Program-made: the position numbers and the translations under genes
The notes under the pieces: generated by a model
What the model saw: only the letters and a program-made list of their open reading frames with translations
Databases searched by the model: none
What the model was told of the DNA's origin: nothing
Origin: a virus
Virus record (IMG/VR): IMGVR_UViG_3300028837_000924
Span: 1 to 22,380 of that record
Length of the DNA: 22,380 nt
Direction: 5' to 3' (one strand)
Shown: positions 3,061 to 16,500 of the stretch, one piece after another
How positions within the stretch are numbered: the first letter of the stretch is position 1
How the letters are laid out: every line of letters begins with the position of its first letter

Positions 3061-3627
3061 ATGGATAAAGACTTCACAAGTACGGATAATGAATTATATA
3101 TGGCCGTAGGTACAAAGATTTCGATATACTATAAACAACAATTCATAGACTTTCTTAGAGATAATTTACCTTTGTATGGCAATATCCTGGATATAGGAGA
3201 TCGCAACCCATTGACAGAGAGATTAGAAAAAGAATTTAATGTAAATATTGACAGTACCTCAGGCGATCTTGATGAACTTCTTGTTTGCAAAGCTAAACAA
3301 TATGATATAGTTATATGCAGTCAGGTGATTGAGCATGTTTTTAATCCGCTGTTTTTACTTTTAAATATTAAATCAGTGATGAAGGACAGGGCAGCATTGA
3401 TACTCGCCACACCTATGAAGCCGTACTGGATAACACAAAGCACACGACACTTTCATGAGATGGATAAATACAGACTGTATAAATTAATTAAGCGTGCTGG
3501 ATTTACTATACAATATTCTAAGCAGCTATACCTATACAGGCGGTGGACATGGAGATCGTTTACCGGAGTAAGGCCATTCCTGAGAAGTTTTTATAAACGC
3601 AGGGTAATACTAATCCTAAGCAAATGA
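3061..3627 (+). CDS. SAM-dependent methyltransferase (class I)
   Basis: The 188-residue protein has a Rossmann-fold methyltransferase core. There is a motif I-like strand and loop NILDIGD (41-47), an acidic residue at the end of the next strand (around Asp64), and YDIVICSQVIEHV (81-93), the motif IV typical of methyltransferase 11/23-type enzymes. A late FHEMDKYRLYKLIKRAGF segment (131-148) resembles the substrate-side helix of that group. Motif I has only one glycine, so cofactor binding may be modified. These enzymes often methylate sugars or small molecules, which fits the following sulfo- and glycosyltransferases. The C-terminus is strongly basic. The gene starts 36 nt after the large terminase and overlaps the next gene by ATGA. 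Confidence 0.75.
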   Translation: MDKDFTSTDNELYMAVGTKISIYYKQQFIDFLRDNLPLYGNILDIGDRNPLTERLEKEFNVNIDSTSGDLDELLVCKAKQYDIVICSQVIEHVFNPLFLLLNIKSVMKDRAALILATPMKPYWITQSTRHFHEMDKYRLYKLIKRAGFTIQYSKQLYLYRRWTWRSFTGVRPFLRSFYKRRVILILSK

Positions 3628-3992
3628 ACAGACCTGTAATAATAGCTATTGACTTCGATGGTTGCGTTGTCACTCACCGATACCCACAGATAGGACAGAT
3701 GTTAGGCCAGGCGCGGTACATCATAAACAAGCTCTACGATGAAGGATATTTTATTATTATCTGGACCTGCCGGGGCGGAGTGGATCTTGTCAATGCAATA
3801 AATTGGATGGATGAGTTTGGAATAAAATACCACAATATAAATGAGAATGCACCCTATGATATGATCCATTTTAAGCCTGCACCAAAAATTTATGCCGATG
3901 TGTATATTGATGATCGTAACCTACAGGGCTTTCCTGGATGGGAAAAAGCTTATGAGATAATAAACAAACAATATGGCAATACTGACTTATGA
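3624..3992 (+). CDS. HAD-like hydrolase (small phosphatase)
   Basis: This 122-residue protein has the HAD motifs in order. Motif I is AIDFDGC with nucleophile Asp10 and Asp12; motif II is IIIWTCR with Thr48; lysines at 84 and 88 stand where motif III is expected; motif IV is ADVYIDDRN with Asp96/Asp97. There is no room for a large cap, so this is a minimal capless HAD domain of the kind seen in phage and Bacteroides proteins of about 120-150 residues. It should remove a phosphate from a small substrate. The gene overlaps the methyltransferase before it by 4 nt and the phosphoribosyltransferase after it by 20 nt, so the two may act on the same metabolite. The substrate cannot be read from the sequence. 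Confidence 0.78.
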   Translation: MNRPVIIAIDFDGCVVTHRYPQIGQMLGQARYIINKLYDEGYFIIIWTCRGGVDLVNAINWMDEFGIKYHNINENAPYDMIHFKPAPKIYADVYIDDRNLQGFPGWEKAYEIINKQYGNTDL

Positions 3993-4326
3993 CGAAGTAC
4001 ACATACTTGTTAATAACATCTGCGCTCAGATAATAAAAGCATCAGCAGACTATGACGGTGTTTATTGTATCCGGGGTGGCGGGCTTGTAGCTGGTGCGAT
4101 GATAGCCTATAAGCTGAATATACCTGTCACTAGCGTGTTCAATAAGCGTATGTTGATCGTAGATGATTGCATAATGACCGGCAGGACCATAAGGCCTTAT
4201 GTTGATTTAGGCATTGATATAGCTGTTTTGCGATGTCATGAGAGCAGGGTGCATCTATGTAGGTATTTTGGTGAGATGAAATCTAATGATTATATAACCT
4301 ATCCCTGGGAAGTGCTGAAAAAGTGA
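3973..4326 (+). CDS. Very short phosphoribosyltransferase-like protein
   Basis: The PRPP-binding signature LIVDDCIMTGRT (61-72), two acidic residues then T-G-x-T, is clear. A GGG loop at 35-37 fits the pyrophosphate-binding loop, and the end DYITYPWEV is like the last strand of xanthine-guanine type enzymes. At 117 residues it is much shorter than the usual 150-220. The stretch between the first sheet and the PRPP loop, which normally holds the flexible catalytic loop, is almost absent. It may therefore be a minimal purine-salvage enzyme, a PRPP-dependent modifier or a regulator. It overlaps the HAD gene by 20 nt and the sulfotransferase by 4 nt (GTGA). Confidence 0.75.
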   Translation: MAILTYDEVHILVNNICAQIIKASADYDGVYCIRGGGLVAGAMIAYKLNIPVTSVFNKRMLIVDDCIMTGRTIRPYVDLGIDIAVLRCHESRVHLCRYFGEMKSNDYITYPWEVLKK

Positions 4327-4955
4327 AGTACCTCAAATTATACGGCCTCCAGCGTTCAGGAACGAACTACATTAAATTCCTTTTAGAGCAGAACTTTGAT
4401 GTGTTTGTCCTTCAGAACTGGTTAGGATGGAAGCATGGCCGTGTCGAGTATCTTAAAGACAATGAAACACTATGGAGAGATTTATCCGTATGTACCCTTT
4501 CGACTGAACAAAAGGCAAGTATTAAGTTCTCCAATACTCCACGCGTAGCCATAAAGAAAAATGTACATGCCTGGATGGTGAGCTTTTATAAATACAAGCG
4601 ATTCAACTGGGGCAGGGACTATAAACATATCATTGATGCTTATTTCACAGCTAACAGGCACTATGAAAAACATTGCTGGATGGTAGACTATGACGACCTG
4701 CTGACACAGCCCTGCGTTGAGATGGAAGCTATGATGCATAAGTTTGACCTGTCACAGAGGTTGGATAAAAAAGCTTGGGTGACGGAATATGAAAAGACCA
4801 TGCCTCGCGGTGGTGACGATCACTCCGATTCATGGGCCGTGAAATACGAGAATCATAAGTTTAGCAGGTCTTACTACCTTGAAAAGAAATATCTTAGACA
4901 GATACCAAACCTGGGAGATATTAATAAATATATAAAAAAGCATTATGAAAAATGA
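4323..4955 (+). CDS. Sulfotransferase-like protein (P-loop type)
   Basis: The N-terminus LYGLQRSGTNYIKFLL places the loop G8-L-Q-R-S-G-T-N15 where PAPS-dependent sulfotransferases bind the 5'-phosphosulfate. The segment IKKNVHAWMVSFYKY (78-92) resembles the 3'-phosphate-binding strand and helix, with Lys79 in place of the usual Arg and Ser87 kept. These enzymes move sulfate from PAPS to a hydroxyl or amino group on sugars, lipids or proteins. A later basic region ending KKHYEK could bind substrate. It starts at a GTG overlapping the previous stop and ends with an ATGA overlap to a second sulfotransferase of different sequence. It is less canonical than the second copy, and a kinase-like P-loop protein is the main alternative. 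Confidence 0.65.
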   Translation: MKYLKLYGLQRSGTNYIKFLLEQNFDVFVLQNWLGWKHGRVEYLKDNETLWRDLSVCTLSTEQKASIKFSNTPRVAIKKNVHAWMVSFYKYKRFNWGRDYKHIIDAYFTANRHYEKHCWMVDYDDLLTQPCVEMEAMMHKFDLSQRLDKKAWVTEYEKTMPRGGDDHSDSWAVKYENHKFSRSYYLEKKYLRQIPNLGDINKYIKKHYEK

Positions 4956-5494
4956 TCTCGCACAAACATAAGTTCATATTTGTTCAGATAAACAAGACAG
5001 GCAATACGAGTATTCGCAAAACACTCTGCCCTGAGACAGGACGCGAGAACGAACACCGGGCAATAAGTTATTATGCACAGCAATACCCTAAAGTATTTGA
5101 TGAGTATTTTAAGTTTACCTTTGTTCGCAACCCCTGGGATAAGGTAGTCAGTCAATATGAGTTTAGAAGAGATCCTGCAAGATTCCCGGCTAACAATACC
5201 AGTAATATGAGTTTTGAACAGTTTATTAACAATCCTAACGGCAGGCCGTTGCAGAATCAGCTTGACTGGGTAACCATAAACCAGATAATAGCTGTTGACT
5301 GGATAGGTAAATTTGAATACTTGCAGGATGATTATAATGAGCTTTGTGATATTTTAGGAGTAAAACGTAAGATATTGGAACACTACAACAAGACAGAGCG
5401 CAGGCCATACAGGGAATATTACAATGACAAAACAAGGGACATAGTTGCACAGATATTTTCAAGAGATATTGATTATTTTGGCTATCGGTTCTAA
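4952..5494 (+). CDS. Carbohydrate sulfotransferase (Sulfotransfer_2-like)
   Basis: Both PAPS-binding motifs are clear. FVQINKTGNTSI (10-21) is the 5'-phosphosulfate loop with Lys15, and FTFVRNPWDKVVSQY (55-69) is the 3'-phosphate site, with Arg59 and Ser67 in the expected places. The ending, with a tyrosine-rich stretch, a DKTRDIVAQIF helix and DYFGYRF, is typical of the family that includes chondroitin and heparan type sulfotransferases. The 180-residue size is compact, without a signal anchor, so it would act in the cytoplasm on a soluble or lipid-linked glycan or on a virion protein. PAPS would have to come from the host, as no PAPS synthesis gene is seen here. It closes the first half of the cargo block, 40 nt before the glycosyltransferase genes. 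Confidence 0.85.
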   Translation: MISHKHKFIFVQINKTGNTSIRKTLCPETGRENEHRAISYYAQQYPKVFDEYFKFTFVRNPWDKVVSQYEFRRDPARFPANNTSNMSFEQFINNPNGRPLQNQLDWVTINQIIAVDWIGKFEYLQDDYNELCDILGVKRKILEHYNKTERRPYREYYNDKTRDIVAQIFSRDIDYFGYRF

Positions 5495-5510
5495 GAAATT
5501 TGTATATTTG
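5478..5510 (+). promoter_or_regulatory. Bacteroidota-type promoter upstream of the glycosyltransferases
   Basis: TATATTTG at 5503-5510 fits the TAnnTTTG -7 element exactly. TTG at 5478-5480, inside the end of the sulfotransferase gene, lies 22 nt upstream as a -33 element. The spacing is slightly longer than the commonest 19-21. It sits in the 40-nt gap before the gene at 5535, so the glycosyltransferases could be transcribed separately from the genes before them. Confidence 0.58.
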
Positions 5511-5534
5511 TTTTTAATCTAAAGAGAATAGATT

Positions 5535-6335
5535 ATGAAACTCTACTTTCCTTCCGGCATGACGCATCACGGCGAAAATGCTATCAAGCATCTCGATTTC
5601 GAGCAATACACCGGCGAAGACCATAAAGAGCCTGCAATGTTCTGGTGTTATTTCTTAGAAGACTATGAATATATGCTGGAACACAAGGGTAAGAAGTTTA
5701 TTTTCTGGCATGGCTCCGATGTGCTTCGACTGCGCGAAAATCCTGAGCTGAGAAAATACCTCCGTCCTATGCACGAGCAGGACATTACCCATGTATGCCA
5801 TAGCCAGCTGTTACAGGATGAGCTTGCAGAGCTTGGGTTATACGCACTTGTACGGCCTACGTTTTGGGGTGATGTAAAGAAATACAAACCTACTTATGAA
5901 TATTCCGATAAGCCTGAGATTTATCTAACGTCTTCACCAGGCAGGGAGATCGAATACGGCGAGGGGTATGTGATCGCGCTGTCAAAAGCCTTTCCTGAGT
6001 GTCGGTTCCATGTGTATGGCAATGATGGACATTCTACTGATAACCTGTTTTTTCATGGCCGTGTGCCTGAGGATCAGATGGATAAAGAGATTGTAGATAT
6101 GCAGATTTGTTTACGTATGAATAAGCACGACGGATTTAGCCAGACCTCAATGAAAGCCTTGCTGTTAGGACAGTACCTGATAACCAGGATTGATTATGAT
6201 TATATTCATTATGCAGAAAAATATCAAGAGATTGTACATTTGATAGATTGTTATATAGATAATGATACGATGACAGATGATTATTATGATCCTGAAAATA
6301 CCACAAAACAATTTAATAACTTTGATTATATATGA
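5535..6335 (+). CDS. Glycosyltransferase, GT-B fold
   Basis: The 266-residue protein looks like a GT-B enzyme. The first half ends with FIFWHGSDVLRLR (55-67), a common N-domain to linker pattern (HGSD). The second half has a Rossmann strand and turn FHVYGNDG (158-165), FFHGRVPEDQM (172-182), then HDGFSQTSMKALLLGQYLIT (198-217). That last stretch matches the donor-sugar nucleotide region of families like GT4, except that the usual second Glu of the EX7E motif is replaced (SMKALLLG). It would transfer an activated sugar to an unknown acceptor. It starts 40 nt after the sulfotransferase, with its own promoter candidate, and overlaps the GT2 gene by ATGA. The replaced Glu may reduce or alter activity. 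Confidence 0.7.
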   Translation: MKLYFPSGMTHHGENAIKHLDFEQYTGEDHKEPAMFWCYFLEDYEYMLEHKGKKFIFWHGSDVLRLRENPELRKYLRPMHEQDITHVCHSQLLQDELAELGLYALVRPTFWGDVKKYKPTYEYSDKPEIYLTSSPGREIEYGEGYVIALSKAFPECRFHVYGNDGHSTDNLFFHGRVPEDQMDKEIVDMQICLRMNKHDGFSQTSMKALLLGQYLITRIDYDYIHYAEKYQEIVHLIDCYIDNDTMTDDYYDPENTTKQFNNFDYI

Positions 6336-7297
6336 GAAAACTCACAGCCTCGATAATATGCAAGAATGAAGAAGAGATGCTCCCTATCATGCTCGACTCG
6401 ATAAAAGGCATTGATGAGATCATAGTTCTTGACACCGGATCAACGGATAAATCCATAGAGATAGCCAAGAGTTACGGCGCTAAAGTATTTAAAGATCCCT
6501 GGCGGGATGATTTCAGCTATTCGCGTAATGCTTGTAAAAAGCATTGTACGGGTGACTGGTTGCTTATTATCGACTGTGATGAGGTTCTTGAATGCACCAT
6601 TGAACAGATCAAGTCAATGATAAATTCAGAATGGGCAAACAGGTATGATCTTTTGCTATTTGATGTTCAGACAGGATTAGAGCGTAACGAACAACCCAGG
6701 CTTATAAAGAACAAAAAAGATATATGGTATTACGGTGCAGCTCATAACCTGCCACGTTATTATCCTGATGGACTGGACTCACCGCATACCTCACGGATGA
6801 TACCTAATGATAAGACTTTTAAGACTACGTTCAGGGTAACGGCTAACTGCTCACCCAATCACGCAAAAGATCCTGACAGGACACTCAGGATACTTGAAAC
6901 AGCACTGAGCAAAGAGCCTATGAATACACGCAATCTTTATTATTATGTCCGTGAGTGGCTTAACAGGAAAGATCCGGCAAGGGCGCTGTATTGGTTGGGT
7001 AGGTATTTTAAGATAGCTCAGATGACCAATGAGCGCGCCGATGCTCATTTTATCGCTGCCACATGCCACTTGGATCTTGGTGATCCTGTCTCTGCTATTG
7101 ATGAATGTATGAACGCTATCAAGATACTACCTACGTTTAAAGCTCCATATCAGTTGTTAGAGATGCTTGCTCACGACACTATGAAACAGCAATGGCATAA
7201 GATGGCCCAGTCAGCTAATAATGCCGGTGTACTTTTTGTCAGGGATATGCACCCTAAACAGAAACCTAAAAGTAATTTGAAAGTTGTAAAGAAATAA
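6332..7297 (+). CDS. Glycosyltransferase family 2 with C-terminal TPR-like helices
   Basis: The N-terminal domain has the GT-A family 2 marks: ASIICKNEEEMLP (6-18) for the first strand with Asn12-Glu13, IIVLDTGSTDKS (30-41), a DDFSYSRN segment (59-66), and WLLIIDCDEVL (76-86), where Asp81-Cys-Asp83 is the metal-binding DxD. From about residue 185 the protein is helical (RTLRILETAL, RALYWLGRYF, AIDECMNAI), resembling tetratricopeptide repeats. This GT2 plus TPR layout is known from bacterial enzymes that glycosylate peptides or surface glycans. The reaction is transfer of a sugar from a nucleotide sugar, on the cytoplasmic side. The C-terminal tail is Lys-rich. It is the last cargo gene and lies 13 nt before the first structural gene. 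Confidence 0.87.
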   Translation: MRKLTASIICKNEEEMLPIMLDSIKGIDEIIVLDTGSTDKSIEIAKSYGAKVFKDPWRDDFSYSRNACKKHCTGDWLLIIDCDEVLECTIEQIKSMINSEWANRYDLLLFDVQTGLERNEQPRLIKNKKDIWYYGAAHNLPRYYPDGLDSPHTSRMIPNDKTFKTTFRVTANCSPNHAKDPDRTLRILETALSKEPMNTRNLYYYVREWLNRKDPARALYWLGRYFKIAQMTNERADAHFIAATCHLDLGDPVSAIDECMNAIKILPTFKAPYQLLEMLAHDTMKQQWHKMAQSANNAGVLFVRDMHPKQKPKSNLKVVKK

Positions 7298-11092: not shown

Positions 11093-11980
11093 ATGGGAAT
11101 TAATAAGGAAGAGGCTTTAAAAAAAATCAATGAAGCTGAAGAGAATAGCGAATTTGAAGTATTCACTAGCCCTGAATACAAATCGTTCCTTGAAAATTAT
11201 GCCGAAAGCGAAGTATCGAAGCGTATAGACGGCGAAGTTCTGAAGATACATAACCAGTATGATCAGGATATTTTTGAGCTTACCGGGCTGAAAAGAGACA
11301 CCAATGAGAAAACCTATGATTTTAATAAACGGATCATAAGCGAACTCAAAGAGAATGCAAAAGGTGTTCCGGAGCTTCAGGATAAGATAAAGAAGCTGGA
11401 AGATGATCTGAAAAACAAAGCCGGTGACGAACAGCTTAAAAAGGATTACGAAGCCCTGAAGGAACAGATCCAGAACGATAAAAAGTCCTGGGATGAAGAA
11501 AAGAAAGGCTTTGAGTCCACTCAGGAGCTGATGAAAAAGGAGATAGTCATTGATAATGCGCTTACTCAACTGACACTGAAACCGGACGACGTTGTTTCAA
11601 AGAAGCTGAAAGAGCTTGCGATAAAGGATGCCAAAGCAGACCTGTTGAAGATCGCAGAGATGAGAAACGGAAAGCTGGTGTTTGTTGAGAACGACAAGCC
11701 GATCCTTAACGATCAGTATGAGCCTAAAGAGGCTATTGATATGCTAAAGGAAAGGCTTGCAGATATTATCCAGGAAGGGAAGAAAGTAGAGAATTTCCCG
11801 AAAGAGAAGCCTGAGATAAAGGTCGATGGTGATAAGAAGGATATAAACGTTTATATTCCCGATACTGTGAAGTCACTTGAAGACCTGAGCAAACATCTCA
11901 TGTCACTTGGGTTGGATAGAAATACAGAAGAATATATCCTGGCTTACGGCAAATATTCGGAACAGTTTAGAAAAAAGTAA
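11093..11980 (+). CDS. Capsid scaffolding protein
   Basis: The 295-residue protein is highly charged and helical. A coiled-coil stretch from about residue 90 to 150 (KDKIKKLEDDLKNK, KDYEALKEQIQNDKKSW) is followed by a less charged region and a C-terminal LSKHLMSLGLDRNTEEY that looks like the capsid-binding helical part of scaffolds. Scaffold proteins fill the prohead and shape the shell, then leave or are cleaved. Its place directly before the major capsid gene, and the gp20-like composition, support the call. Start ATG 11093 follows a 57-nt gap with no clear promoter. Confidence 0.75.
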   Translation: MGINKEEALKKINEAEENSEFEVFTSPEYKSFLENYAESEVSKRIDGEVLKIHNQYDQDIFELTGLKRDTNEKTYDFNKRIISELKENAKGVPELQDKIKKLEDDLKNKAGDEQLKKDYEALKEQIQNDKKSWDEEKKGFESTQELMKKEIVIDNALTQLTLKPDDVVSKKLKELAIKDAKADLLKIAEMRNGKLVFVENDKPILNDQYEPKEAIDMLKERLADIIQEGKKVENFPKEKPEIKVDGDKKDINVYIPDTVKSLEDLSKHLMSLGLDRNTEEYILAYGKYSEQFRKK

Positions 11981-12027: not shown

Positions 12028-12567
12028 ATGACATTAGCTGCAACCGTTTTAGATGAGTTCAGACTTGCTTACGAGAGAAGCAATATGGACGCGCATGAAC
12101 ACCGTTTGAGTATCTACGGTGCTTATGAAACATTTCGCAAAGATACTGCAAACCTTATTCCCGGATACCAGGAGCTTGAACTTGGCCGTAAGTATGAAGG
12201 GCAGACCGTGTCTGTGCCTGTCATTAACCGTGCCACCTACACCACAAGCTCATCCCGGAGCTGTACCGCCAAGACAAAGGAAAATACATCGGCCTATTCA
12301 GATGTGACCTTTACCACAATTGAGACTGGTTTTCAGATGATCCCGGCACAGTACGAGAGCAACATGATTAAGTACCAGGCTGACTTCAATCGCAAGATGG
12401 AAGATGTTCAGCGTACTTTCTTAGCTGCCCTTGATACGGCCGCCATCACTAACCTGAACACCAATAAGAGCGCGGTCAACAATGCGAGAATCGCGCCTTC
12501 CAGTTTGGTGAAGTATCACTGGCATACACGCGTAGCCAGACCGTACCGACAGGCTATCGCGATGTGA
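12028..12567 (+). CDS. Major capsid protein, N-terminal part (gene appears broken)
   Basis: The first 152 residues look like the N-terminal half of a Bacteroidota phage major capsid protein: YERSNMDAHEHRLSIYGAY, then SVPVINRATYTTSSSRSC, a QMIPAQYESNMIKYQADF helix region and FLAALDTAAITNLNTNKS at the end of the spine-like helices. After about 12483 the reading becomes implausible (ARIAPSSLVKYHWHTRVARP) and stops at TGA 12565-12567. In the -1 frame from 12468 the sequence continues with capsid-like residues. The two parts joined give about 280 residues, and the segment that should follow NTNKSAVNN seems missing. A frame-changing deletion near 12480-12495 explains this best, with either a real mutation or an assembly collapse behind it. 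Confidence 0.75.
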   Translation: MTLAATVLDEFRLAYERSNMDAHEHRLSIYGAYETFRKDTANLIPGYQELELGRKYEGQTVSVPVINRATYTTSSSRSCTAKTKENTSAYSDVTFTTIETGFQMIPAQYESNMIKYQADFNRKMEDVQRTFLAALDTAAITNLNTNKSAVNNARIAPSSLVKYHWHTRVARPYRQAIAM

Positions 12568-12869
12568 CCTATTCGATGCCCCAGGCTTCGCTGGGTTATC
12601 TCTCATGGGTAGATATTGACTCACGGCTTAATCATAAGTCAGGCGATGGAAAAGAATGGTTCGTCCAGCTCCTTCCGTTGGTTGGCCATGACGTCGGAGT
12701 GCTGTATCAATCAACTTGCGGGGATAAGTCAGGCACGCTGACCGGGCTGGATGCTACGCTGGTAGAGAGCTGGCAGTTTTCGTTTGATTATGCGTTCGTG
12801 AACGCTTACAACAGCGATACTTCCACTTATCCAGGCACCATTTACAGGGCTGACTTCAGTAAGACCTGA
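12468..12869 (+). CDS. Major capsid protein, C-terminal part (out of frame)
   Basis: Open from 12468 after a stop at 12465, this frame reads sensibly from about 12489: NRAFQFGEVSLAYTRSQ, VPTGYRDVTYSMPQASLGYL, SWVDIDSRLNHKSGDG, KEWFVQLLPLVGHDVGVLYQ, VESWQFSFDYAFVNAYNSD and a final FSKT. The pattern of a hydrophobic GVLYQ strand, acidic loop and SFDYAF strand fits the C-terminal part of a phage capsid subunit. The first in-frame ATG at 12564 is too far in to be a natural start, as good coding sequence lies before it. It is not a free-standing gene. Downstream genes begin at 12872, so the capsid gene ends here. Confidence 0.72.
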   Translation, partial: ERGQQCENRAFQFGEVSLAYTRSQTVPTGYRDVTYSMPQASLGYLSWVDIDSRLNHKSGDGKEWFVQLLPLVGHDVGVLYQSTCGDKSGTLTGLDATLVESWQFSFDYAFVNAYNSDTSTYPGTIYRADFSKT

Positions 12870-12871
12870 TA

Positions 12872-13108
12872 GTGGGTTGCTGCGGGAGAAAGGCAAGCAA
12901 ACTAAACTCAATCGCGAAGGGCTGGAAAAATGTTGTTTTCAGCTCTCCGCGAATTGAATATATAGCTAAAGAAAGAGCAAAGGTGTGCGCCGTTTGTGAA
13001 GAGAACAGAAGCAACTGGTGCAGGCTTTGTAAATGTTGGCTACCGGCAAAGTGCCGCAGCCTGTCAGAAACATGCGATAAATGGGAAATAGATAATACCT
13101 ATGACTAG
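12872..13108 (+). CDS. Small zinc-ribbon protein
   Basis: The 78-residue protein begins at GTG, two bases after the capsid stop. It has Cys39-x-x-Cys42 and Cys50-x-x-Cys53-x-Cys55, plus Cys61 and Cys68, in the order CAVCEENRSNWCRLCKC, then LPAKCRS and SETCDKW. Four or more of these cysteines should bind zinc. Small proteins of this type, ending in a Cys-x-x-x-W-like motif, occur beside capsid genes of Bacteroidota phages. They may bind DNA or serve in assembly. An early Cys3-Cys4 pair is extra. It overlaps the next gene by 8 nt. Confidence 0.7.
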   Translation: MGCCGRKASKLNSIAKGWKNVVFSSPRIEYIAKERAKVCAVCEENRSNWCRLCKCWLPAKCRSLSETCDKWEIDNTYD

Positions 13109-13436
13109 GATCTTTTCATCTCTTGACCTTGCATTAAACAATATCGAAGATTATATGCTTGCGAAAGAGACGGATATTTACCTATGTCAGACCACTTACC
13201 CATCAGGCAAAGAATATTCCTTCCGAGAAGAAAAAGACATCTCCTTTCAGGACTCTCCTGTTATCCTACGTTGTAATATTATCCCTTTGTGGCACCTGTT
13301 CAGAAACAAATCCAACGCATTGAAGCTGAAGAGAAAGTTTGAACAGAAATATGGATATGTGATACGGATGAAACGTATCACTTACGAAGATGAATATGTC
13401 TACACACTAAAAATATTACGCAGAAATGTTCAATAA
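13101..13436 (+). CDS. Hypothetical protein in the head-tail connector block
   Basis: This 111-residue protein has a basic, mixed alpha/beta sequence (LFRNKSNALKLKRKFEQKYG, then a strand IRMKRITYEDEYVYTLKIL). There is no signal peptide, membrane segment or clear motif. It overlaps the zinc-ribbon gene by 8 nt and the following gene by 11 nt. Its position after capsid and zinc ribbon suggests a role in head completion. No family recognised. Confidence 0.55.
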   Translation: MTRIFSSLDLALNNIEDYMLAKETDIYLCQTTYPSGKEYSFREEKDISFQDSPVILRCNIIPLWHLFRNKSNALKLKRKFEQKYGYVIRMKRITYEDEYVYTLKILRRNVQ

Positions 13437-14703
13437 ATCAACAGTTAAAACAGGGTTATTCGGACTTATTGGTTTTCGGGACACCGATGATCCTGATTAT
13501 AAGTCACTGGCAACAGCCCTTACAGCCTCATCCAGTGGTATGTATTATAGTGATTATCATCCGCTGGTGAACTACGAGAATATGTATTCTATCGCTCCGA
13601 ACTACGATGGGTATAATTACAGTGATTACTCGGCAACGGCAACCTACGCAACGGGTGACTTTGCCAAATCACTTAACCTGTCTTACGAGGCCGTAACAAC
13701 CGTTCCGACCGGTCAGCTGCCAGGGGATACGCTTGGCACATACTGGAAGCTGCCTGTCAATGACTGGCTGACGCAGAAAGTAGAAGCTTCGATCAATAAA
13801 GTGGTAAATAATGTGTTTGTTAATAAAAAACTAAATGAGACAACAAAGACATTCATTGATAACGTACAGATATTTGAGGGTGCAGGGCGTATGCAGGATG
13901 TGATCACCCCTAATAGCCGCTTTGTAGGACTTCGCATAAGACCGAAAAGAATAAATAATATAGCAGTCTTTCTTAATTACATAGGCTTTCAGTTCACAGA
14001 GATACAGACGGGATTGAATATATACTTGTTTCATTCAGGCAAATATGCTCCTGTCTCTACTACTGCCTTCACGACGGCAGCGGCGTATTCATTCGACTGG
14101 AAAGCCTCAACCATTGAGCTTAACTACGTAGACTATGATAATGATATTGACTCCGGAGGTGATTATTTCCTGGGTTATTTCGAGGATGACATATCAGGCA
14201 ATGCGATAAAGAAGCGTCATCAGTTTGCCGATCCGCCCTGCGGAGGGTGCGGAGGCGGTGATCTAAGTCTTTATAACCTATGGAGCAAATACGTAGAGAT
14301 ACAGCCCTTTGAGGTTGCCAGTGGTGATCTTAACGGTACAAATATATGGGATCTGTCGAAGACAGGCTATCCGCTTAGTACGAATTTCGGATTAAACCTG
14401 TCGCTGTCCGTCAAGTTTGATATTACGGATATTATTGTATCCAATAAATCACTGTTTACCGATGCGCTGGGTTATCAGTTTGCTTATGATATGTTGCAGG
14501 AGTTTGTATATAACCCGCAGTCGAGGCTTAATAAGCACGGTGATAATGCACAGAAACAGTCTATACTGTATGATCTGAACGGAGAGGACTCTATTCGCAC
14601 TAAGCTTGAAAAACAATTAGAGGCCGTAGGGTTTGACCTGAGCCGTATCAGCCAGGCGCTGCCTAATGATGTAAAAAGAAGGATCCATGTAGGTGCTAAG
14701 TAA
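13426..14703 (+). CDS. Structural protein, probable head-tail connector or virion protein
   Basis: The 425-residue protein lacks a signal peptide and is rich in Tyr, Asp, Ser and Thr, with beta-rich stretches early and a helical C-terminus (LEKQLEAVGFDLSRISQAL). A Cys-Gly-rich turn CGGCGGG near residue 273 could bind metal or cross-link. An LTQKVEASINKVVNNVF helix (about 115-131) is followed by strands. It starts inside the previous gene and overlaps the next by 11 nt. Gene order (after capsid, before tail genes) and length fit a neck or large virion protein. The exact role is not visible. Confidence 0.6.
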   Translation: MFNKSTVKTGLFGLIGFRDTDDPDYKSLATALTASSSGMYYSDYHPLVNYENMYSIAPNYDGYNYSDYSATATYATGDFAKSLNLSYEAVTTVPTGQLPGDTLGTYWKLPVNDWLTQKVEASINKVVNNVFVNKKLNETTKTFIDNVQIFEGAGRMQDVITPNSRFVGLRIRPKRINNIAVFLNYIGFQFTEIQTGLNIYLFHSGKYAPVSTTAFTTAAAYSFDWKASTIELNYVDYDNDIDSGGDYFLGYFEDDISGNAIKKRHQFADPPCGGCGGGDLSLYNLWSKYVEIQPFEVASGDLNGTNIWDLSKTGYPLSTNFGLNLSLSVKFDITDIIVSNKSLFTDALGYQFAYDMLQEFVYNPQSRLNKHGDNAQKQSILYDLNGEDSIRTKLEKQLEAVGFDLSRISQALPNDVKRRIHVGAK

Positions 14704-15124: not shown

Positions 15125-15734
15125 AAAGCCTAAAATACCAACATTCGATCTCAGGGGGATTGATGCAAAGATTCAGGACCTGCAAGCTATTGTTGCTAAC
15201 CTTGCATGGCTGGACTACTCTTTCGGGGTATGTGAACATGCTAAAAGACAGGAAAATGAAGAGATGATAACTTACCCTGCACAGTGGATAAATAACCGGA
15301 CGGATTATATTGATCTTCGTCCTTTCCCGGCTGATATTTATAATTATGCTTTCTGGAATTATGCTGATCCGGCAGAGGTGCAATACAATAACGATCAGTT
15401 ACAATACTCAAAACGCCAATATGCACATTATCAATATGATGTAGCCTGTATTTTTGTGACTGATATGAGCCGTGTGGATAATGCAAATACGTATAACGAG
15501 ACAAAATCCAGGATGCGTCAGGATATTGTCAACATCCTCGAGACGAACCTTGTAGATATAGGCTTTCATTTCTGGATAACCGAGATCATTGAAAAAGATA
15601 TTCAGCAGATATTTGATCCTTTCGTGATAGATAAACCCGATGAATGGAAATATCCATACCAGGCTTTTCGTATCAATGCGAATATACTGTTTAAACGCGA
15701 GTGTCCTGTTTATAATAATTATTCGAGGGTATGA
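15114..15734 (+). CDS. Tail terminator / tail completion protein candidate
   Basis: The 206-residue protein contains an early IDAKIQDLQAIVANLAWLDY helix, an aromatic middle (YIDLRPFPADIYNYAFWNYA) and a late alpha-beta part with RMRQDIVNILETNLVDIGFHFWI. It directly precedes the tail assembly chaperone with a 4-nt overlap. Proteins of this size there often end the tail tube or join tail to head. It has no signal peptide. The assignment comes from position and size rather than from a motif. Confidence 0.5.
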   Translation: MPYKKPKIPTFDLRGIDAKIQDLQAIVANLAWLDYSFGVCEHAKRQENEEMITYPAQWINNRTDYIDLRPFPADIYNYAFWNYADPAEVQYNNDQLQYSKRQYAHYQYDVACIFVTDMSRVDNANTYNETKSRMRQDIVNILETNLVDIGFHFWITEIIEKDIQQIFDPFVIDKPDEWKYPYQAFRINANILFKRECPVYNNYSRV

Positions 15735-16225
15735 TTGAGATCAAACATAAAAAGCTTACACTGGAACTGTATAACGATATTGACCAGTTGCCTATCGTTC
15801 GTTTTAACAAGGCTAATAAGTTCTGGATGTTACACGACAATATAGGCTCTTCGATTGAAGATATTGACCGGAACCATTTATCTAAGCTGGCATTGATAGC
15901 AGGCGACGAGGCCAAATGTAAAAAAGAGATAGCTAATCTCAGGATACTGATATATAATATTATCACAGAGGTTAATGTCAATCACATGAGCTTTGCCTGC
16001 CTTATCTCTAAGGTGAATGGAAAGCCTGCCAATGATCTGAGTGATGACGGGATAAAAAAACTATTAAAAAAGCTCAGTGACGGCGGACTGACAAATGAAG
16101 TATTAAAAAAAAAATTGCAGAACTCAGGGAGAAAATCTACGAAGAGCTGGAGGTTTATTTCCCTGCACAGTTTAAGAATGTACTTAGTACGGTTTTTTGG
16201 TCTAAGCAGAAAGAGAAAACAATAA
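15731..16225 (+). CDS. Tail assembly chaperone, zero-frame product
   Basis: The 164-residue reading frame has a helical core (EDIDRNHLSKLALIAGDEAK, CKKEIANLRILIYNII) and, near the end, LKKKLQNSGRKSTKSW, which is a poor protein-like tail. That tail follows a run of ten A and lasts only until TAA 16223-16225. Directly before the tape measure, tailed phages commonly encode two chaperones made by a -1 frameshift (as gpG and gpGT in lambda). Here the same arrangement is seen: the sensible sequence continues in the -1 frame. The short form should fold and bind the tape measure while the tail forms. Confidence 0.72.
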   Translation: MIEIKHKKLTLELYNDIDQLPIVRFNKANKFWMLHDNIGSSIEDIDRNHLSKLALIAGDEAKCKKEIANLRILIYNIITEVNVNHMSFACLISKVNGKPANDLSDDGIKKLLKKLSDGGLTNEVLKKKLQNSGRKSTKSWRFISLHSLRMYLVRFFGLSRKRKQ

Positions 16226-16500
16226 AGGCGCTGGATGCGATAATAAAAGGTGATATTCCCGATACGAGCGAGTTTGATGATTATTTTGCATCTATGGTCA
16301 AGCCTAAGAACTTTGCCGGAAAGGAAAACGAAGAGCTGAGATATGATAAAAGCTTTGAAAAGAATTGTGTTGTCCTGGGACAGTATTATAATAAGCCTGT
16401 TAAGGAATGCACGACAAGGGAATATTTTACATTACTTGATTATTACAATGAACAATTAAAACAATCGCGGCGTGGCAGAGCAACCAATAAGACACGATGA
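16099..16500 (+). CDS. Tail assembly chaperone, -1 frame extension
   Basis: In the -1 frame a stop at 16096-16098 is followed by an open frame that reads KIAELREKIYEELEVYF, PAQFKNVLSTVFWSKQ, KALDAIIKGD, then DYFASMVKPKNFAGKENEEL and a final EYFTLLDYYNEQLKQSR, ending at TGA 16498-16500. This is well-formed helical protein with no start of its own near the front. A ribosome slipping back one base on the A-run would make a fusion of 256 residues (15731-16500). An internal ATG at 16294 is unlikely to be a true start. The end overlaps the tape measure gene by 29 nt. Confidence 0.72.
   Translation, partial: SIKKKIAELREKIYEELEVYFPAQFKNVLSTVFWSKQKEKTIKALDAIIKGDIPDTSEFDDYFASMVKPKNFAGKENEELRYDKSFEKNCVVLGQYYNKPVKECTTREYFTLLDYYNEQLKQSRRGRATNKTR
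16105..16114 (+). promoter_or_regulatory. -1 frameshift slippery site (ten A)
   Basis: The zero frame reads TTA AAA AAA AAA TTG across this run, so two overlapping A AAA AAA heptamers are available, each allowing tRNA slippage by -1. The -1 frame opens only six bases before the run, so the site is at the very start of the shared window, as in real frameshift signals. A short possible hairpin follows at 16125. Confidence 0.72.
16125..16165 (+). promoter_or_regulatory. Possible stimulatory hairpin downstream of the slip site
   Basis: CAGGGAGA (16125-16132) can pair with TTTCCCTG (16158-16165), an 8-bp stem with one G-U pair and a loop of 25 nt. It begins 10 nt after the A-run, close to the usual 5-9 nt spacing for frameshift stimulators. 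The large loop makes stability uncertain. Confidence 0.33.

Follow-up and report, generated by a model that had tools for sequence, protein, structure and literature searches.

The window covers one virus record from end to end, a contig of 22,380 bases that IMG/VR classes as linear. Positions 12028-12866 hold a major capsid protein gene of the family that includes MP1 of Bacteroides phage B40-8 and the capsid proteins of Flavobacterium phages of the FpV type (PHROG 7231, annotated as virion structural protein, with a profile of 349 positions). The genes around it are ordered as in the named relatives: portal, capsid-associated protein, capsid, PHROG 8189 protein, and tail genes. An intact head gene matching PHROG 7970 (11093-11980, plus strand) occupies the place of the gene annotated as 'capsid associated protein' in the relatives, and the PHROG 8189 profile match corresponds to an intact structural gene (13426-14703, plus strand). 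The remaining recognizable head and tail genes are open frames with lengths similar to those of their homologs. Between the capsid and PHROG 8189 genes lies a small cysteine-rich ORF (12872-13108; PHROG 13558, E = 5e-4), for which no counterpart is annotated in the named relatives.

The capsid gene is spread over two reading frames of the plus strand. A frame-1 ORF (12028-12567) matches the N-terminal part of the PHROG 7231 profile (positions 1-158, E = 1e-35), and a frame-3 ORF (12468-12869, called without the requirement of a start codon) matches its C-terminal part (positions 219-348 of 349, E = 4e-30). The ORFs share 100 bases (12468-12567), and the C half reads one base back relative to the N half. 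The same split is obtained by tblastn with 161 ORFs from relatives, in which frame 1 extends to about 12486 and frame 3 starts at 12489. Per-codon scoring against 133 relatives identified the valine at 12475-12477 as the last certain frame-1 codon and the asparagine at 12489-12491 as the first certain frame-3 codon; at 12480-12482, frame 3 lacks the asparagine that all family members share. By this scoring, the break lies within about 12478-12489. The profile split, tblastn, and codon scores thus agree with an earlier note on this DNA, which had placed the end of the first frame at about 12483 and the resumption of capsid-like sequence at about 12489.

Accordingly, the gene can be divided into an N-terminal part comprising the N-arm, the E-loop strands, and the spine helix (12028-12477), the break interval, and a C-terminal part in frame 3 (12489-12866). 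The end of the first ORF (12493-12567) is out of frame, runs to a stop codon, and bears no similarity to the family past the break. At the junction itself, the isoleucine at 12490-12492 remains consistent with frame 1, the asparagine at 12489-12491 fits frame 3, and up to about nine bases around 12484-12492 are acceptable in both frames. This handful of bases fitting both sides is compatible with a join or a deletion at a short shared sequence and demonstrates neither.

The extent of the loss was estimated by aligning 133 distinct full-length relatives with the two capsid pieces of the contig and counting the residues between the last frame-1 column and the first frame-3 column, where the contig has two bases. 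The relatives carry 62 residues in this gap in 114 of the 133 cases and 63, 64, 66, or 68 in the rest, which bears out the earlier estimate of 60-70 missing codons. This corresponds to 184 missing bases in the commonest case and 187-202 otherwise. Each of these lengths leaves a remainder of one when divided by three, in agreement with the observed -1 frame change. The earlier note's claim of a frame-changing deletion in this record's capsid gene is supported. The joined product would comprise about 280 residues, compared with 342-438 in the named relatives. A profile of the 62 missing positions found the segment nowhere in the window on either strand (best E = 0.87), at a sensitivity that recovered left-out relatives at 4e-15 and 4e-16. 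Within the remaining sequence near the break, just one unrelated 10-base pair of direct repeats is present. The copy is a member of the PHROG 7231/B40-8 MP1 type by descent; lacking the middle segment and the single open frame of that type, it is, as written, damaged and non-working.

The structural role of the lost segment can be judged from the intact capsid protein of a relative (L099), modeled with a mean pLDDT of 75.5 and a pTM of 0.78. The model resembles HK97-fold phage capsids, with the best similarity to mycobacteriophage Douge (Z = 15.5), followed by P22 (14.4) and HK97 (11.6), over 246-251 aligned residues at rmsd of 3.3-3.7; the fold is thereby assigned on this intact relative. Residues 156-223 of L099 correspond to the part absent from the contig's gene and contain, beyond the spine helix, a 17-residue helix (176-192), a strand (199-203), and an 11-residue helix (205-215). 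These elements presumably belong to the P and A domains of HK97-type capsids, which take part in capsomer packing, and for this reason a shell would not be expected to form without them.

As the PHROG 8189 gene lies downstream of the capsid gene, it was used as a capsid-independent bait to gather related loci without bias on the state of the capsid gene. Among the 85 loci collected, 76 hold the whole capsid region; in six the region runs off the end of the fetched stretch, and in three it is lacking. All 76 carry a single open capsid frame; relatives sharing the two-frame arrangement, which had been proposed earlier as counter-evidence, were found at none of these loci. The 80 loci found via the capsid itself are also whole and in one open frame (80/80), as expected given that choice. 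The N part of the capsid matches one place in each of 76 phage records, and none of the fetched loci contains two major capsid ORFs. Named relatives comprise capsid proteins of Bacteroides, Parabacteroides, Alistipes, Elizabethkingia, Croceibacter, and Flavobacterium phages (approximately 35-42% identity, one copy each). Single-protein and exact-DNA scans of viral contigs and blastn against phage records returned no relative close enough for a base-by-base comparison; the best identity in the collections searched was about 40% over a capsid half.

MP1 of B40-8 (ATCC 51477-B1), identified as a head protein by N-terminal sequencing (PMC2535602), belongs to the same PHROG 7231 and occupies the same place after the portal (MP3) and the capsid-associated protein, but it is encoded in one open frame, whereas in the contig's copy about 62 codons are missing and the frame shifts. 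The capsids of Flavobacterium phages tant8-1 and FpV9 (about 41-42% identity over the C half) and of Croceibacter phage P2559S (36% over the N half) share the gene order with the contig but are single open frames of 342-351 codons that include the middle segment. A relative of the structural module is also present in a 1.58 Mb chromosome contig of Bacteroides salyersiae (L172), so the lineage, whose known members are mostly lytic isolates, also occurs in host genomes.

In this metagenome-derived record, an otherwise ordinary major capsid gene, belonging to a B40-8/FpV-like siphophage of Bacteroidota, lacks about 184 bases. The favored explanation, with a probability of roughly 0.55, is a join error of the metagenome assembly, the phage itself having a whole gene. 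Two contig ends would have been merged at a short overlap arising by chance (up to about nine bases around 12484-12492), possibly in a region of low coverage or of strain mixture, and the actual phage would encode the complete protein. This explanation fares somewhat better than a lineage devoid of the capsid because the lesion is isolated, affects an essential gene, shows no decay around it, and lies in a contig without close relatives. Against it, a genuine slippage deletion would also leave a short shared sequence, and without a close relative there is no base-by-base comparison with the original sequence. General decay of the contig, or a contig riddled with errors, was considered and rejected; the sole other split gene, which is chaperone-like, has a break that recurs in relatives and is therefore not evidence of damage to the contig.

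A genuine deletion of about 184 bases, e.g., through slippage at short direct repeats, is the main alternative and somewhat less likely; it would have occurred in a prophage or in a defective genome sustained by a helper. Such a genome would have no working capsid and would form no particles of its own, and the gene would be an ordinary pseudogene. The simplicity of the lesion, the few bases at the break that suit both sides, and the prophage-like relative in the B. salyersiae chromosome contig are in line with this possibility. However, no other recognizable head or tail gene is damaged, neither an integrase nor a host flank was recognized in the 22-kb fragment, and among free particles the dominance of a genome lacking a capsid would be unexpected.

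A second functional capsid gene, suggested by the earlier note, is very unlikely. The genomes of named relatives measure 40-48 kb, so that perhaps half of the genome is unseen and could hold a whole copy, the present one being a relic. Against this, the capsid gene occurs once per record in the 76 phages and twice in none of the fetched loci, the missing segment is absent from the rest of the window, and the present copy is at the usual place among the head genes. Even less credible is a programmed frameshift or ribosome bypass yielding one shorter working protein: the 100-base ORF overlap (12468-12567) would permit it, but positions 12400-12600 contain neither an X-XXY-YYZ heptamer (as the earlier note had observed) nor a homopolymer of five or more bases, a frameshift cannot supply the 62 or more conserved residues that are absent, and no relative shows the arrangement (0/76). 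ORFs 12028-12567 and 12564-12869 overlap at ATGTGA; a shell built from two separately made pieces, or from a capsid protein devoid of the segment after the spine helix, is nevertheless extremely improbable.

The split capsid gene thus probably does not exist as a biological feature, and the arrangement most likely reflects either faulty assembly or a single defective copy rather than a novel mode of shell construction. A literature search for split capsid genes in metagenome contigs found nothing relevant. The case calls for caution: gene callers will list this divergent representative of a known capsid family as two short unknown proteins, and surveys based on capsids will therefore overlook or misclassify it.

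The other frame break in the contig is of a different kind. The homolog of PHROG 8914 (15731-16500) lies directly upstream of the tape measure gene, resembles a tail assembly chaperone, and undergoes a -1 frame change in a run of ten adenines (16105-16114) with no codons lost. In contrast to the capsid break, which is unique, lacks a slippery site, and removes codons, the chaperone break is recurrent and coincides with a conserved A run. Among relatives, 123 loci carry the gene as a single open frame (a few of them cut short), and 14 others have it split at this same site. These 14, of which some are near-duplicates, include the isolate P2559S, and with the contig the split loci number 15. In unsplit genes, the three lysine codons at the run are always AAA (298 of 298 cases), compared with 53% AAA elsewhere in the same genes. 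Of 74 distinct unsplit sequences, 73 have a run of 9-11 bases, and lengths of A9-A11 are also kept in the split genes. Near-identical neighbors differ by a single A (L114 and L083, 95% identity; P2559S and L025, 90%).

The lambda G/GT frameshift occupies the same position as the chaperone-like gene (PMC5009743), and frameshifting at A runs of 7, 9, and 11 reached 10, 40, and 63%, respectively, in reporter assays with other genes (PMC3711429). Judging by its sequence conservation, the A10 run is likely a conserved programmed slippage site in the tail assembly chaperone. The RNA polymerase may be what slips, given that the required change is +1 in some relatives and -1 in others. In unsplit relatives, the slippage product would be short. 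Sequencing errors may account for some of the odd run lengths.

A gene block at 3061-7297, between the terminase and the MP2-like gene, has no equivalent at that place in B40-8. Its content (a methyltransferase, phosphoheptose-isomerase-like and phosphoribosyltransferase-like proteins, two sulfotransferase-like proteins at 4323-4952 and 4952-5491, and a glycosyltransferase) suggests modification of a surface sugar.
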